A stretch of DNA of 64,000 nucleotides from Xylaria sp. FL1777 (Eukaryota > Ascomycota > Sordariomycetes > Xylariales > Xylariaceae), in contig MU400517.1 of assembly GCA_022578965.1 (NCBI GenBank), positions 310,001 through 374,000 of the forward strand, in the 5' to 3' direction. This document shows positions 23,007-46,321 of this stretch, piece after piece. Numbering within the stretch: the first letter of the stretch is position 1; each line of letters starts with the position of its first letter. The notes under the pieces were generated by a model, which was not told where the DNA came from, did not search any database, and saw only the letters and a list, made by a program, of their open reading frames with translations. The position numbers and the translations under genes were made by a program.

Positions 23007-24739
23007 GAAGCGATATGATATAGGGATCAGTGGGTGGTTTCCTAAGCCCCTTTTTCTCCGGGTGCAATTACCCTGATCTATTTTTACACAGCTACTTAGC
23101 TTCATACAGCCAGTACTGTGTTAACACAATTTGGGGTCGGAAGAGGTATTGTTACTGTATGGACAAAGGAACGAGATAGATGATAAAATCAAGCTATCCC
23201 TTTATGAATGCAATGACGAATTGAAAATATAAGATCAAATGGAACACGTTGCTCATCGGGGCTTCTTTCATACTCTACTTGCTGTGAACACAAGTTAGGG
23301 GAGATTGACTATGCTACTTATATGGATATAAAATAGATCGCCATGTCAAAGTCAGGAGGCCAACCACACACATCTTGTTTTTGTACACTCTCATCTAGCA
23401 GTATGACTAAGCTGGACTTAGCCCCTGAGAATTAGGCCCAATCACCAATTCTACCCTACTTCAATACGAACACAGCGCAACAGCCAGCATGATCAAGACA
23501 GCGTGCTAAGGCAAAGGAATATAGCTCGGTCGGGCAAGGACAACGATGCCTTCGATAAGGGTCGCGATAGAAAAATTGGTCGTTATGCTTATAGCTTGCC
23601 AAGCTAACGTCGTGAGCTAGGCTGTCAGGTACGAGAGGAAGTTGGCGCATGATTTGGGTGCCATTAAGATTACCTAATGATCTAAAAGGTGTAAAAAGGC
23701 TTAGTATCTTGCCACATTCTCGTCTCACGCATATAATTTAGAAGAAGGAAAACTTTCTTACACTGTCCTCTAGCAGTTGGCGCAGCCGATCAGAAACGCC
23801 TATATGACACCCCCAGAGTCGACGTGGACAAATGTTGGGGTCGACGTGAACAGAATACCCTCCTAGGATATCAAGACTGAGGAAGCTAGCCCGAGACTCG
23901 ACATGAACCCCAAACTACGTTCGATAATGGGGCGCTTGCCTAGTCGCATAAGGAGGTTGTCATCGTGCAAAGTCCCGTCATTTTTTACAGGCCTTGTTGA
24001 CTCAATGGCTTCCGCATTTGCGTGAGTTGTACTGAACTCAAATGGTGTCGGCCATCATGGGACTGGAATAAGATGCTGGTCAGCTGGGCTGGGCTTACGA
24101 AGCAGATGATTAGGAAGTATATATGCACTCAGGAGAAGATCATTAGCAAGTCAACTCTCTGAGCTGGAAGCTCCGCTTGTGCATAGTGACGACCTTCGAG
24201 AGGGGCTTATCACTATACCTGAGGTTTCCTCCGAAGTTGACAGGGTCTCTTTGACAGCATCAGAAGCAACTATTGACAGGCGAAGTTGAGTAGGGCGAGG
24301 GCAAAGACGAAGCCTGCATCTGTTTACATTGGCACAGACCGTCTTCCTCAGCCAATGCGACTCTCTGGCTTATTGAGGAAAAGCAGCCGGATACACTGCA
24401 GCCAACTACCGGTATAGTATACCAATATACTACATGCTGATTTCGAATACTACCCATGCATCACGCGTCCTGATCCGATTCGATGAGAATAGTCAATTGA
24501 TAAGGGGCCTGTGGTCAGGCAGTGTAGGCATTGTAGGATGCACATAGGCACCCTTGTAACCAACTGGCATATTGTATCCTTATTTCCTATGCTACTGCTA
24601 CCATACTATACGTGCCGTACATTTATGGTACCCTTGCCAGCATTGATAAAATCATGCAATAAGACGGTCACTTCTCAAACCAACAACCCTCGGCTTCTAG
24701 GCGGGCTTTGATGCGCCATTTGAACTTTGGTTAGTTCTC
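23007..24739. other. 1.7 kb spacer at the edge of the accessory block
   Basis: No coding frame longer than about 90 codons and no motif. It separates the glycosidase from the peptide-precursor gene. Confidence 0.6.
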
Positions 24740-25299
24740 CTATTCGTTGGCCTCTGAAACGACATCAGCATAGGCTGCGATGGCCGGGTCAGCCCTTCGA
24801 GATTTCTCATTTTCATCAGCCTCTGCAACAACATTGGCATAGGTTGCGATTGCTGGGTCGACCCTTCGAAGTTTCTTCTTCTCATCAGCCTCTGAAATAA
24901 CATCAGCATAGGCTGCGATAGCTGGGTCAACCCTTCGCAATTTCTTCTTCTCATCAGCTTCTGCGATAACATCGGCATAAGCTGCGATGGCCGGGTCAGC
25001 CCTTCGAAATTTCTCCCTTTCGTCGGCCTCTGTAACTACATCTGCATAAGTCGCGATAGCTGGGTCAACCCTTCGAAATTTCTTCTCATCAGTCTCTGCA
25101 ACGACATCGGCATAAGTTGCGATGGCCGGGTCAACCGTTACAAGCTGGCTTCGGCCATTGTTTCCTATATCCTGGCGTGAGCACAACCTTCAGTACGAAG
25201 GCGAGTAGTCGTCAAAGAAAGGTATTTAGTACCTAGCGGTATAGCATGACATGTCATACTGAGCCCTAGGAGGCCTGACAGAAGTGCTTTGTAGAACAT
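24740..25299 (-). CDS. Secreted repeat peptide precursor, candidate RiPP/Kex2-processed
   Basis: Two exons, 25299-25233 and 25164-24740, joined across a 68-bp intron (donor GTACTA, acceptor ATATAG); 163 aa. The first exon is needed for the start: it encodes a signal peptide of about 19 residues (MFYKALLSGLLGLSMTCHA). After a 13-residue linker come six tandem repeats: residues 33-54, 55-77, 78-100, 101-123, 124-146 and a shorter last one, 147-163. Each repeat starts [V/A]DPAIA[T/A]YA[D/N]V[V/I], continues with an acidic/Lys-rich spacer, and the first five end in Arg-Arg, a Kex2 site. The single Tyr is invariant. Precursors of fungal cyclic RiPPs such as the ustiloxin type have this plan, and a UstYa-type oxidase lies 0.8 kb away on the other strand. 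The mature product is unknown. An unmodified repeat peptide or cell-wall protein is the alternative. Confidence 0.8.
24743..25135 (-). repeat. Six tandem 66-69 bp coding repeats
   Basis: Repeat units on the minus strand: 25135-25070 (66 bp), 25069-25001, 25000-24932, 24931-24863, 24862-24794 (69 bp each) and 24793-24743 (truncated). Each boundary is the Arg-Arg pair encoded CGA AGG. Changes between units are concentrated in the spacer and in Thr/Ala before the Tyr, while DPAIA and Tyr are kept. Confidence 0.93.
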
Positions 25300-26099
25300 A
25301 TTGGGACGTAGTCTTTTAGCGGTGATTTTGCGAGTAGATATTTAAAGGCTTGGAGGTGCATAGACTGAGGACAAGAAGGAGAAAATAGAAGATGTGTCAT
25401 AGCAAAATAGTCACCCTTTATATACCCTGGAACTGCTAGGTTGGTCTTGAGAATCGTATTCCCTATTACCATAGCATTCAACTCCCATAAGCCTGTATGT
25501 GGCTAGACATCATGAGCATGCAGGCTTATCTTTGTCCTTCCAAACAAGCCTAGAACATGTACTGAAATGGAGTAAAGAAACCTTGGAATCATTGTTTATA
25601 TTGGTAGGTCTAGCCGCTCTAGCCGTTACCTCCTGTATGTATCGTAACACTCATCGAATTGGTAGGTTGTCAGGTCAGGTCAGGTCAGGTCAAACGGGGT
25701 ACCTATCCACCCACACGTAAACGCAGATTACCAATCCATTTAATGGCATGGCGAGATGAGCCGTAGAGAAAGAGTCAATACCGACCATCTTCCACTAATG
25801 CATATGTACGGCACCAGACTAGAGCGCTTCTCGCTTCTCACGGTTTTCGCGATTGGAGGATGAGAGAGGGGATAGACGTCCTGTCTTGACCGCCTTTAGT
25901 GCTTTGCATGAACTTGCTAAGGTGTTGTCGTGAGGTTGCCGATGATCCGCCCTCACTATTCCCTAGCTCACCATAGATGAGATCATGTCCATATGAAATT
26001 GCCACTTGCCACTTACTCAAGTATCCTGATCTCGCTGCTTTCTGAATCTAATTACTGCAAACTTCTTCCTTTTGCCGATCTTTGTTATTTGCAAACGCC
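25300..26099. other. Divergent promoter between precursor and UstYa gene
   Basis: An 800-bp shared spacer between two genes transcribed away from each other. The only striking motif is the TCAGG repeat listed separately. The arrangement would allow co-regulation. Confidence 0.6.
25670..25692. promoter_or_regulatory. TCAGG x4 repeat in the divergent promoter
   Basis: Four exact head-to-tail copies of TCAGG followed by TCA, about midway between the precursor ATG (25299) and the UstYa ATG (26100). It is either a small microsatellite or a cluster of binding sites for a regulator; the sequence alone cannot tell. Confidence 0.4.
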
Positions 26100-27098
26100 A
26101 TGGAGAAAATCACCTCAGAGTCTTGTGACTCTTTGATTCCTCAATGCGACTGCGCAAGTCCAACCAGCTGGAGCAGACCTCCTAAACAAACTGTATGGAA
26201 GCCATTAAGTTCATGGGGAAGAACAAATATTCTCTTATCATTGCTACTGCTCTTGCTTTTCTACATCGCGGTGGCGGTGACGATTGGCCTTGCAGTAAAC
26301 GGGTGCGACATACCATCAAGTCAGATTGACAACGACCATCCTGGTAAATTTCCTTCTTCATTTTACGCCCACGCGTGAGAATTTACCTTAACAACAAATA
26401 GCTCTACTAGGTTATGATTTGGAATATGAGAGAAGAACGGAATGGTACCCAACTGAGGCGCCATTTGACCTTGAACCCTCGGATGAGCTCGATACCGCGT
26501 GGGATGATTTACTCTATGGTGAGCATTTGACCTTCAACATGCCGTGAATCATTTAAACTAAGCTATTCCCAAGCTATCAACGTCAGGCTTACAGCAGATG
26601 AGCTACGCCGTGTTGGCGTGAATATGACGAATCGAGTTCAAGTCAACGGTGGTGACTATTTAGGTTCCATGGGCGTCTACCATCACCTACACTGTCTAAA
26701 CAATCTGCGTATGGTTGTGCACTGGGATTACTATAAGTCCAAATGGGAGAACTATTCTCACCCTGAACAATTCGCTACAGAGCACACAGGTCGTTCTCTC
26801 CTTGACCCCGTTCTAGTCTTAATGTATAGCAACTGATGATGCGTTAGATCACTGTATAAATAGCCTGCGCCAGGCTGTCATGTGTCGTCCCAACACGGCG
26901 ATTACAACTTTTGAGTGGATTGATGAGGTCAACGCCCTAGAGGGTAAAGTACAGAGACTAGATGAAATGGCAAACTGTGCGAAATGGGATAGTTTCGATG
27001 ACTGGGCTCGTAAGAAGGCACTTGTAAAAGGGAAATTCACCTATCGACCGGGCCCCTTCGCGAATCGCCAAGAAGTCACTGGAAGCCCAAGTGAATGA
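26100..27098 (+). CDS. UstYa-family oxidase (DUF3328), copy A
   Basis: Membrane-anchored oxidase family that in ustiloxin-type pathways makes the oxidative side-chain ring of RiPP core peptides. Four exons: 26100-26343, 26402-26518, 26574-26789 and 26848-27098; phases match and give 275 aa. A single transmembrane segment lies at about residues 43-66 (NILLSLLLLLLFYIAVAV). The two family motifs are present: H157-x-x-H160-C161 within GVYHHLHCLNNLR, and H191-x-x-H194-C195 within HTDHCINSLRQ. The rest fits the family, with an acidic stretch followed by TAWDDLLY, and CRPNTAITTFEW. Neighbours: the repeat precursor is divergent and 0.8 kb away. ATG at 26100 is chosen because the upstream extension has no ATG. 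Donor GTCGTT at 26790 is weak but fixes the second motif. Confidence 0.92.
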
Positions 27099-28622: not shown

Positions 28623-29350
28623 TCATCTGCAACTTTGTGAGGCTGTAGATGTTAGGGTGAAAAGGATATGGGATGGGTATGACCGTAAAGAAGCCCATAC
28701 GTGGTACCACTTTGTGAATTGCAGCGCCAGTTGTTCACAGGTTAAGACAAACCCCCAACCGCCTTCGGTGTTATACTCAATACATTGTTTCGCGAATGCC
28801 GGGCTCGTGGTTGCTGTTCCGTTACTCAATAATAGACAATCCCAGCCTTTCGTGTGTGCATCTTGAAGGCTGCCACCAACGCACTGATCCGTGTTACATC
28901 CGGCAAACACCAGAGTTCTGATTCCACGGGAATTCAGAGCAGCCTCGATTCCAGTCTCGCCCCAGAATCCACTCAAGCCATTTTTGTAGATGTGAATGTC
29001 TTCCTGCTGGGACTCTTTTCTGAGTGGGTACCAGAACCTTGAATTCCATTGGTTTCTCATCAGAACCTTACTGCCGTCGATCAAGGTACCATCTTCTAGG
29101 TTAACGGGACCGATGCTTGGTCCTAATCGACCTATCCTCTTGCCCCTAACAAAATTAGTGTCGGCGGCAAATCCTTTAATGATAGTTGGGGGCATTTCGT
29201 CAATATCCTCCTCCGTGACGCCCCAGCCAAGCCAAACGATAGGAATGCTAGCTTTTCTGCAGGCAGGGATGGCATGTTGCAGGAGCTTATTTACTACCTG
29301 TATGCCGACGCTGTTAGAAGGTCGACTAAGTTCTGGGGCCAGAAAGTAGT

Positions 29351-29417
29351 TGTCGCGCAAAACGACGCCGTTGTTGCGGAATTGACAACAACGGTATTTA
29401 TAGCCACCAACTCGACA
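29351..29417 (-). repeat. LTR, downstream copy
   Basis: 67 bp, TGTCG..CGACA. It contains a perfect 9-bp inverted repeat CCGTTGTTG / CAACAACGG (29368-29376, 29386-29394) that could form a hairpin. Confidence 0.9.
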
Positions 29418-29570
29418 CACCCCCCAGATTAGCTAGGCTAACTAAGGACAAGCTGATCTGATTCGCACGCGGCCAATGCCCTACGTGAGCCTACTCCTGG
29501 TGGCCTATTCGTCCAACCAGTACCAGCGTAGCGCTATACAGCTGCATGTTTGTGATCGATCCTCTACACG

Positions 29571-29683
29571 GGATCGAACCCCTTAGCTCTTAGTCCTGGT
29601 GGTGGTGGACCGGTGTTACTTTTCGCCGGAACCAGAACAGAAGATCATGAAGGTAGTGTGCATTGGCGTTAACCGTTGAGCTA
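29571..29683 (-). other. tRNA-like box A / box B inside the element
   Basis: On the minus strand TAGCTCAACGGTT (29683-29671) resembles Pol III box A and GGTTCGATCC (29580-29571) matches box B. The spacing (about 90 bp) is too long for a normal tRNA and the T-stem does not pair well, so I call it tRNA-like, not a tRNA gene. Confidence 0.45.
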
Positions 29684-29713
29684 GCTAGCAAGAGCGAACC
29701 AAGGGCTCATAAC

Positions 29714-29780
29714 TGTCGCGCAAAACGACGCCGTTGTTGCGGAATTGACAACAACGGTATTTATAGCCACCAACTCGACA
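29714..29780 (-). repeat. LTR, upstream copy
   Basis: 67 bp, identical to the copy at 29351-29417. Read on the minus strand it is the 5' LTR with a TATA-like CTATAAATA. Confidence 0.9.
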
Positions 29781-29978
29781 GTAGTTTTGTAGATCGAAGA
29801 TGACTAGTGCTGTCTTGGAAGGGTCAATAGTAACTGGGCCACTTGTTGTCTCTAATGGGATACGAGGGAAGATGAGCGGTGAGGTCGGCGAAAGAGGATG
29901 AGTAAGGTCATATCCCTTGTCTTGTGAATAAAGCCAAAATTTCTTTCCGCCGATAACCTCAGTGTTGTCCAAAGACAT

Positions 29979-30484
29979 CTCAAAAATTGTTCATCAACGT
30001 CAACCTACGTAAACCACAGAAACGGAAAGACAGCAATTGTATTAAATAATAGGGATGAGGTTTTGAGAAGTCGACTAGTATTACAGTTTGAGGGTTAGGT
30101 AGGTATTCAGCCTCGCTTATCTGAGACATATTGGCGCGGAGCCGAACCAATTGTATATAGACTCAAGGACAGCCACCAAGTCCAGCGCAAGCCCGGATGG
30201 GAGGTATGGACCTTGGCAGCGATCACAGATTATTATATTGTGAATAGAGTCAAGTTCTCAATTCTAAGCCCTGAAACAGGAGCCCTTGTTGTAATGATAG
30301 TCATCCTGTGGCACCTAGATCACAATATATACCCTGCAATAATTATTAAGCAGCAACCTAAATAAAATATAATGTTAAAGATGTCTGGGGGCTTAGAAAT
30401 GAGACATGACTGTATGTATGCTTTTGATCCCAAGCTGTAGCGTTATATGGCCTATGCCTTTTTCGTCGTGTATGTGTTCAAATC
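29979..30484. other. Spacer, no gene seen
   Basis: AT-rich 0.5 kb between the isochorismatase-like gene start and the MFS gene stop. Nothing recognised. Confidence 0.7.
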
Positions 30485-45124: not shown

Positions 45125-46321
45125 CTAGGTGTCGTGGTTCTGTGACGGCCATCGCACGGGTGGAACATAGGAGACTTTCCTCGAATAGCTCCAGTCTTCA
45201 ATCGAGCTCCACTTTACACAAACGGAACTAGAATTAGATTTTGTGAGAGGCTTATCAATTGTCTCGGTGTCCCATCTGTATGAGTTAATGGCCGTGTTGC
45301 CGTGGCACATGGTGCTGATACGCAAGACCTCTAGGCAATGATCTGCCTTTTGGTTAGCGCTTCGGGTTTATGGTGAACATATCAGTGAAATCAAGATAAA
45401 CAGACAAGACAAATGCCATAAAACGGACAAGAGAGAGCTTAGTACGAACCAAGATGTGTTTTTAAATAGTGGTGTTGCGATTCTGTGAGGTTCGGATAAT
45501 ATCGGTCCCGGAAAACATATAGTCTGAGATTCCGCTGCCAAGTCATTAGTCATTCATGTTATCACTTTTATTTCCTTCTGCTCCTTCAGCTGAAAACAAT
45601 AAGATGACAACAAACTTTAGGGGTTCAAACGTCACGACAGTGGTATGTCCCCCTATTTCCCCATTCTTTTGTTGTGTTGAGGTGAGTTGTAACAGAACGC
45701 TTACTAGACAATGAAGCTCATGATACACCGCTACAGAGGCAATATATCCGCCTTCGGTGAGCTCAATTATATGCTCGAACGACTCGCCGGCTCTTGACAG
45801 CTCATCTCGGCTGATGTTGAAATAGACAGCTGCGACTGAATTAGTTCGTAGCCGACAAAAGTTCTAGCCTATTATTTCTGAGTTACGTACGCGTGATCAA
45901 GCGATCCCAAGCTTCTTCCTGTTCCTCTGAGGGAGGGCCGGCATATACACTGTAATGACCAGGATCGGTCGCGTGCTCAGTACTCACTTCATACTCGACA
46001 ACGTCCTGGAGAGGAGCTATGAACTCATCAGCATTAGAATGAGAAAAGACCTAGTTTACTTATAAACTTACACCAAGAATGTTGTAGCTGAGCTGGGGGA
46101 TCGTTGCTGTTAAAGAAGCCAGAGCTTAGTAGCACGCCACCAAGTGTCAAAATTATAATGTGAAGTATCGTAACATAGAAGTATTTGAAAAGGGAGATAA
46201 GTTTCTTCTTTGCCTCCTTTTCTGGCGTTTCTTCATAGGTTTTGAACTTCTCTTCGAGAAATATTGGCTCGGCGTCATCCACGAGCCTACTAGCTTCAGC
46301 CACACGCTCAGAAAAATCCAT
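45125..46321 (-). CDS. UstYa-family oxidase (DUF3328), copy B
   Basis: Five exons: 46321-46072, 46016-45891, 45835-45705, 45534-45450 and 45342-45125; 269 aa. One transmembrane helix at about 47-67 (YFYVTILHIIILTLGGVLL) follows a charged N-terminus. The family core is complete: VVEYEVSTEHA, AWDRLI, then H164-x-x-H167-C168 in YHELHCLRNLR and H196-x-x-H199-C200 in THLDHCLEVLR, followed by CHGNTAINSYRWD. The fourth exon has no Met and is easy to miss; it supplies YVFRDRYYPNLTES, a typical UstYa stretch between the two motifs, and is preceded by a 170-bp intron. True ATG is 46321, not the earlier in-frame GTG. Distance to copy A is about 18 kb. Pathways of this kind often use two UstYa proteins; whether these two act together is inference. 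Confidence 0.9.

Follow-up and report, generated by a model that had tools for sequence, protein, structure and literature searches.

The window analyzed here, a stretch of 64,000 nucleotides from Xylaria sp. FL1777, lies on a contig of 568,080 bases within an assembly of 58.7 Mb and harbors the gene of a candidate peptide precursor with six tandem repeats, which lies head-to-head with an intact gene of the UstYa (DUF3328) family. The features referred to below are the following:

25299-24740, minus strand: precursor gene, two exons, 163 aa
25233..25299, minus strand: precursor exon 1, encoding the leader MFYKALLSGLLGLSMTCHA, then IPL and the first base of a Gly codon
25165..25232, minus strand: predicted 68-bp GT-AG intron (GT...AG), from a comparison of candidate introns
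25164-24743, minus strand: precursor exon 2, six DPAIA[T/A]YA[D/N]V[V/I] units with Arg-Arg after units 1-5
24742-24740, minus strand: precursor stop codon
25300..26099, no strand: region between the divergent start codons of the precursor and UstYa genes, 800 bp
26100-27098, plus strand: UstYa (DUF3328, PF11807) gene, exons 26100-26343, 26402-26518, 26574-26789 and 26848-27098, 275 aa
30488..31979, minus strand: MFS transporter ORFs (Pfam), 3.4 kb beyond the first UstYa gene
45125..46321, minus strand: second UstYa gene, predicted 269 aa, with HELHC and HLDHC, 19.9 kb from the precursor

If the intron of the precursor gene is retained, the reading frame runs into a stop codon within it. Nine GT-AG candidate introns give a product of more than 140 aa; five of them preserve the whole leader of 19 residues, and the 68-bp candidate alone preserves all six repeats as well. 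In our judgement the 5' splice site, GTACTA, has no strong match to the consensus. The leader is hydrophobic with an AxA-like end, as judged by eye, and its hydropathy peak is modest (1.56 over 15 residues). An earlier note on this DNA had proposed the coordinates, the 68-bp intron, the 19-residue leader and six repeats separated by Arg-Arg; all of these are borne out, with the gene on the minus strand and Arg-Arg present after units 1-5.

The six units measure 22, 23, 23, 23, 23 and 17 aa, which leaves 20-21 residues once Arg-Arg is removed, and 17 in the last unit. Arg-Arg ends the first five units with identical codons in all five, unit 6 continues to the stop codon, and unit 1 is not preceded by a dibasic site. 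Columns D2, P3, A4, I5, A6, Y8, A9 and V11 are identical in 6/6 units, and the core varies only at positions 7 (T/A), 10 (D/N) and 12 (V/I). Secreted Kex2-processed repeat precursors (KEPs) have been defined by a signal peptide (SignalP) and three or more tandem repeats, each 8 aa or longer and none above 100 aa, that are flanked by KR, KK, RK or RR sites (PMC7329392). In this precursor, units 2-5 stand between RR sites with 21 residues each, and all units fall within 17-23 aa.

The array exceeds chance, Tandem Repeats Finder scoring it 459 at period 69, 511 at period 138 and 548 at period 207, and the gene looks coding and constrained. Over six gapless 60-base copies of the repeat, pN/pS is 0.23 in the coding frame versus 0.41, 1.65, 0.85, 1.31 and 0.75 in the other five frames; the single stop in the coding frame of these copies is the gene's own, and the variable sites number 8, 3 and 13 at codon positions 1, 2 and 3. 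Over the whole unit, with the missing spacer end of unit 6 and the one-codon gap of unit 1 (placed by hand) left out, pN/pS is 0.27, and codons 2-12, the core, give 0.13 versus 0.48 for the rest of the unit. The difference in pN between core and rest is equalled in 3.6% of 20,000 codon-column shuffles, a contrast that lends modest support, because the limits of the core came from the earlier claim itself. That claim, of spacers drifting while the core is kept, holds in relative terms, although the spacer residues E14, E17, K20, R22 and R23 are invariant.

The product of the neighboring UstYa gene matches an NCBI entry of Xylaria sp. FL1777 with 100% identity across 275 residues, and PF11807 is found above the Pfam cut-off in two of its exons. 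It has a strongly hydrophobic stretch at residue 44 and two HxxHC motifs, HHLHC at 157 and HTDHC at 191, the latter spanning a splice site. Both motifs are kept in 20/20 aligned proteins (itself and 19 relatives, drawn from 54 listed matches), and a search of the protein set finds relatives annotated in many Xylariales, such as Ustulina deusta (77% identity) and Xylariales sp. No.14919 (70%). The 800-bp region between the two start codons could be a shared promoter. Four head-to-tail copies of GGTCA occupy 25673-25692 in this region and form a possible regulator site.

Farther along the window, the MFS transporter is a possible exporter, and the second UstYa gene is a candidate member of a cluster with the precursor. 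No repeat precursor was found near this second gene with an exact-repeat detector, whose rows in the window lie at 24.7-25.2 kb only, and comparison of its protein with solved structures gave a lowest E of 0.073. Pfam further identifies, among the neighbors, enzymes of the GH10 and GH127 families, an isochorismatase-like gene, a protein with a fungal rhodopsin domain and, spread over two stretches, an adenylating enzyme. The isochorismatase-like gene (28626-29990, minus strand) has its N- and C-terminal parts split by a stop-containing stretch and bears a 67-nt exact direct repeat at 29351-29417 and 29714-29780, 363 apart; it looks either interrupted by an insertion or endowed with a long unusual intron. 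ARAGORN found no tRNA in the window.

Tyrosinase, methyltransferase and S41 peptidase gave no match at E <= 0.001 in the 102 stop-to-stop stretches of at least 75 aa that start at 12-50 kb, a scan that left out 43 stretches of 66-74 aa and shorter exons. In the broad sense of the term, as told in PMC12048977, the enzyme that defines a dikaritin is a DUF3328 protein with two HxxHC motifs, and one is encoded 800 bp from the repeat precursor. The strict, five-gene definition (PMC12048977) includes a tyrosinase, a methyltransferase, multiple DUF3328 proteins and a transporter or peptidase. The locus has the N-terminal leader and repeated core of a strict dikaritin precursor and, toward the multiple DUF3328 proteins and the transporter, the second UstYa gene 19.9 kb off and the MFS gene 3.4 kb beyond the first; it is not established as a strict dikaritin, since the tyrosinase and methyltransferase were sought and not found in those 102 stretches. 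It probably works like a dikaritin.

No relative of the precursor was found at E <= 0.001 among the 7999 candidates with the best word-sharing that were scored from about 5.8 billion proteins, a search that drifted relatives could escape, and the gene is apparently unannotated in the protein set, which includes many Xylariales proteins. Within its own genome the precursor recovers just its two exons and one match at E 1.7. AIATYAD and AIAAYAD are absent from the open full texts searched, in which DPAIA occurs in five papers, all on unrelated subjects to judge by their titles and the openings of their abstracts. The text of the KEP survey (PMC7329392) yielded no occurrence of the core DPAIAxYADV; its supplementary tables, outside the search, may list it. 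The earlier note set this core apart from YAIG and YVIPID, and it was found nowhere else in the 7999 candidates, the own genome or the open full texts searched. Among Pfam profiles, DUF7552 is matched at E 1.5e-6 and 28.7 bits (cut-off 27); no single stretch passes, the best covering 20/76 profile positions, and we take this to be a composition match of the repeats over 20 residues, although DUF7552 keeps its formal standing. Turandot and three other profiles, all below cut-off, we likewise take to be composition matches of the repeats.

An unmatched core is common for KEPs, because 2560 of the 7878 in the survey, 1758 of which lie near DUF3328 genes, have no homologue, and most KEP types are confined to one genus (Umemura 2020, PMC7329392). 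A study of Hypoxylaceae and Xylaria hypoxylon describes ustiloxin-like clusters in some species and states that such cluster mining depends on similarity to known precursors (PMC8403587). The kind of precursor found here is well known, and its peptide sequence looks new as far as searched.

With the surveyed KEPs that accompany DUF3328 genes, the locus shares a leader, three or more tandem repeats that span at least 8 residues each and are delimited by dibasic sites, a DUF3328 gene next door, and Tyr and Asp in the repeat (Umemura 2020, PMC7329392). The ustiloxin (UstA, UstYa/Yb, UstQ) and phomopsin systems likewise combine a leader, a repeated Tyr core, dibasic sites and a DUF3328 protein (PMC6514808). 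The YA common to the ustiloxin-type YAIG and to YADV may be chance. Unlike these systems, the precursor has no tyrosinase, methyltransferase or S41 peptidase near it in the 102 stretches scanned at 12-50 kb, and its cut sites are RR with units of 20-21 residues, whereas those of UstA are KR with 13-14 residues, the size of the pieces into which UstA is thought to be cut before ring closure (PMC6514808). Of the ustiloxin/phomopsin-type reading put forward in the earlier note, the plan of a Kex2 precursor beside a UstYa gene is supported, and the ring, the Tyr link and close kinship to these systems are conjectural.

Asperipin-2a is made by a four-gene cluster, AprA, AprY, AprT and AprR, which cannot do without its UstYa homologue AprY and which resembles our locus in its repeat precursor, its single close UstYa homologue, the lack of a tyrosinase among the four genes and its transporter (PMC6514808). 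Its core, FYYTGY, has three Tyr whereas the Xylaria unit has one, and its cluster contains an isoflavone-reductase-like gene, none of which was identified in the scanned stretches of the window (12-50 kb). CctR, which the neighboring UstYa resembles in family, membrane segment and the copper motif HxxHC(x)nHxxHC, is an O2-dependent dinuclear copper enzyme that is membrane-bound and dimeric and has its site in the HxxHC pair, and AprY and ApnU are reported to behave like it (PMC12435403). It differs in being a cyclochlorotine hydroxylase, whose substrate is a non-ribosomal cyclic peptide (PMC12435403).

The genome holds 31 exon matches to PF11807, about 20 genes by our own grouping. At 10 UstYa loci other than that of the precursor, we examined the surrounding 20 kb with a detector that needs three exact 4-residue repeats, which weaker arrays escape. 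KEP-like repeat ORFs appear at four of the ten, 1.6-5.7 kb from the UstYa match, and none were detected with it at the other six:

L018:2794-3534, plus strand: repeat ORF, PHHAGKKTKGN..KR (repeat detector)
L024:5464-6246, plus strand: repeat ORF, VIASD..EKR (repeat detector)
L032:2542-2874 (G000:C58:222966-223298), plus strand: KEP-like ORF with the repeat HDQDEIYNTGKREA (repeat detector)
L033:6966-8282 (G000:C24:237396-238712), minus strand: fused repeat protein with 11 units of the DTNWYTDSASGVAGSL type

The cores at these four loci are unlike each other and unlike DPAIA. The di-His of the L018 repeats resembles types in the survey (PMC7329392). The L032 ORF has five HDQDEIYNTG units parted by KR and a hydrophobic leader ending in AVPLG, with a UstYa match 2.6 kb off, and is a candidate for a second Tyr-containing precursor in this genome. 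Detector ORFs at L017, on the minus strand of L024 and at 24700-25035 of the window were dropped as low-complexity or wrong-frame. Several UstYa matches also fall within about 10 kb at G000:C19:412106-422511 and resemble a multi-DUF3328 cluster.

In the L033 protein, 11 Trp-Tyr units run in frame into a domain that bears HQYHC and HTIHC, and a public entry of the same organism, P0055, combines this domain with 10 Trp-Tyr units. Counting the domain itself, 25 matches to it are listed at E <= 0.001, among them proteins of Xylaria, Biscogniauxia, Zopfia, Nemania, Periconia, Paraconiothyrium, Trypethelium and Botrytis; all 16 that were aligned of these 25 have between 1 and 10 WY..SA units and a pair of HxxHC motifs spaced 26 residues apart. 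Homology of this C-terminal domain to UstYa is not supported, at a profile-comparison probability of 1.6% and a Pfam E of 0.017, below cut-off. The fusion is possibly a precursor that brings along a copper-type domain, and it may be odder than the pair in the window. Plant BURP peptide cyclases may be fused to their own cores, and a precursor that carried its own copper-type domain would resemble them. At the level of titles and the openings of abstracts, no published report of such a fusion of repeats and a double-HxxHC domain was found.

At the sequence level, the gene model of the precursor, the constraint on its core, the intact head-to-head UstYa gene and the conserved copper motif are established. 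From these, we consider it likely that the gene encodes a secreted KEP whose units are oxidized by the adjoining UstYa, probably at the invariant Tyr. This reading is favored because six units with RR after five of them, a low pN/pS in the coding frame and a UstYa gene 800 bp away occur together, and because the count of DUF3328 genes peaks at the gene adjoining KEP genes, with Tyr in 65.6% of the repeats near DUF3328 versus 38.2% elsewhere (PMC7329392). Asperipin-2a, which is made with one UstYa homologue and no listed tyrosinase (PMC6514808), also speaks for it, as do the KEP-like repeats within 20 kb at four of ten other UstYa loci; the six loci where none was detected mean that UstYa need not imply a repeat precursor. 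Against this reading, the UstYa family also includes hydroxylases, halogenases and enzymes that work on other scaffolds (PMC12048977, PMC12435403), and the 102 scanned stretches contain none of the three further enzymes sought. UstYa orthologues are annotated in other Xylariales and no relative of the precursor was found among the 7999 scored candidates, so that conservation of the precursor-UstYa pair would be conjecture.

The model proposes that the leader carries the precursor into the ER, that Kex2 cuts after Arg-Arg and that a Kex1-type carboxypeptidase trims the arginines, which would release as many as six peptides, nearly alike and about 17-21 residues long, the first of which, with no dibasic site before it, would retain part of the leader region. 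The masses computed for units 2-5 after loss of Arg-Arg are 2338.13, 2201.16, 2245.18 and 2205.04 Da, and oxidation would shift them, or those of shorter trimmed forms, by minus 2.016 or plus 15.995. The acidic and basic spacer may serve recognition and trimming. By comparison with CctR and AprY (PMC12435403), the adjoining UstYa would be a dinuclear copper oxidase, dimeric and anchored in the membrane so that its domain faces the lumen, and would oxidize the units, most likely by linking the invariant Tyr8 to a nearby side chain; the invariant Val11 would be a first guess for the ring partner and Asp/Asn10 a second. The particular outcome of a single UstYa acting on a long one-Tyr unit, in which an ether would join Tyr to Val or Asp within a peptide about 20 residues long, is a tentative and rather doubtful proposal.

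It could be argued that the gene instead encodes a precursor of secreted linear peptides, signaling, surface-active or antimicrobial, like pheromone-type KEPs, and that UstYa acts elsewhere. KEPs of the mating-factor type are indeed linear and 6120 of the 7878 surveyed have no DUF3328 gene near (PMC7329392), the units are long and charged, and UstYa has relatives in many Xylariales while the precursor has none found; the head-to-head UstYa gene at 800 bp, the Tyr kept in every unit and the peak of DUF3328 genes beside KEP genes (PMC7329392) make this unlikely. That UstYa modifies the units without a Tyr ring, for example by hydroxylation or a Tyr-free link, would agree with the hydroxylation, halogenation and cyclization known from DUF3328 members (PMC12048977, PMC12435403) and with the L018 and L024 repeats, which lie near UstYa genes and lack Tyr in their conserved words, but Tyr8 is invariant in 6/6 units and ustiloxin, phomopsin and asperipin are Tyr ethers (PMC6514808), so that we hold it to be quite improbable. 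That the product is a secreted repeat protein that stays whole, or that the gene has fallen silent, is hardly credible: the lack of an identical entry in the protein set (the neighboring UstYa has one) would point to it, but RR with identical codons after 5/5 internal units, the low coding-frame pN/pS, the open frame and the intact partner gene speak against it.

The apparently unannotated precursor, the adjoining oxidase and the predicted masses permit a direct search for the product, and one UstYa beside a unit with one Tyr would offer a simple way of testing DUF3328 enzymes acting alone. The presence of several UstYa-linked candidate precursors with unlike cores in one Xylaria genome bears on the turnover of cores against a steady enzyme family. 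A Tyr-Val or Tyr-Asp ether, if true, would make the product a fungal ring peptide that exceeds ustiloxin, phomopsin and asperipin in size and differs from them in its linkage, perhaps confined to the Xylariaceae.
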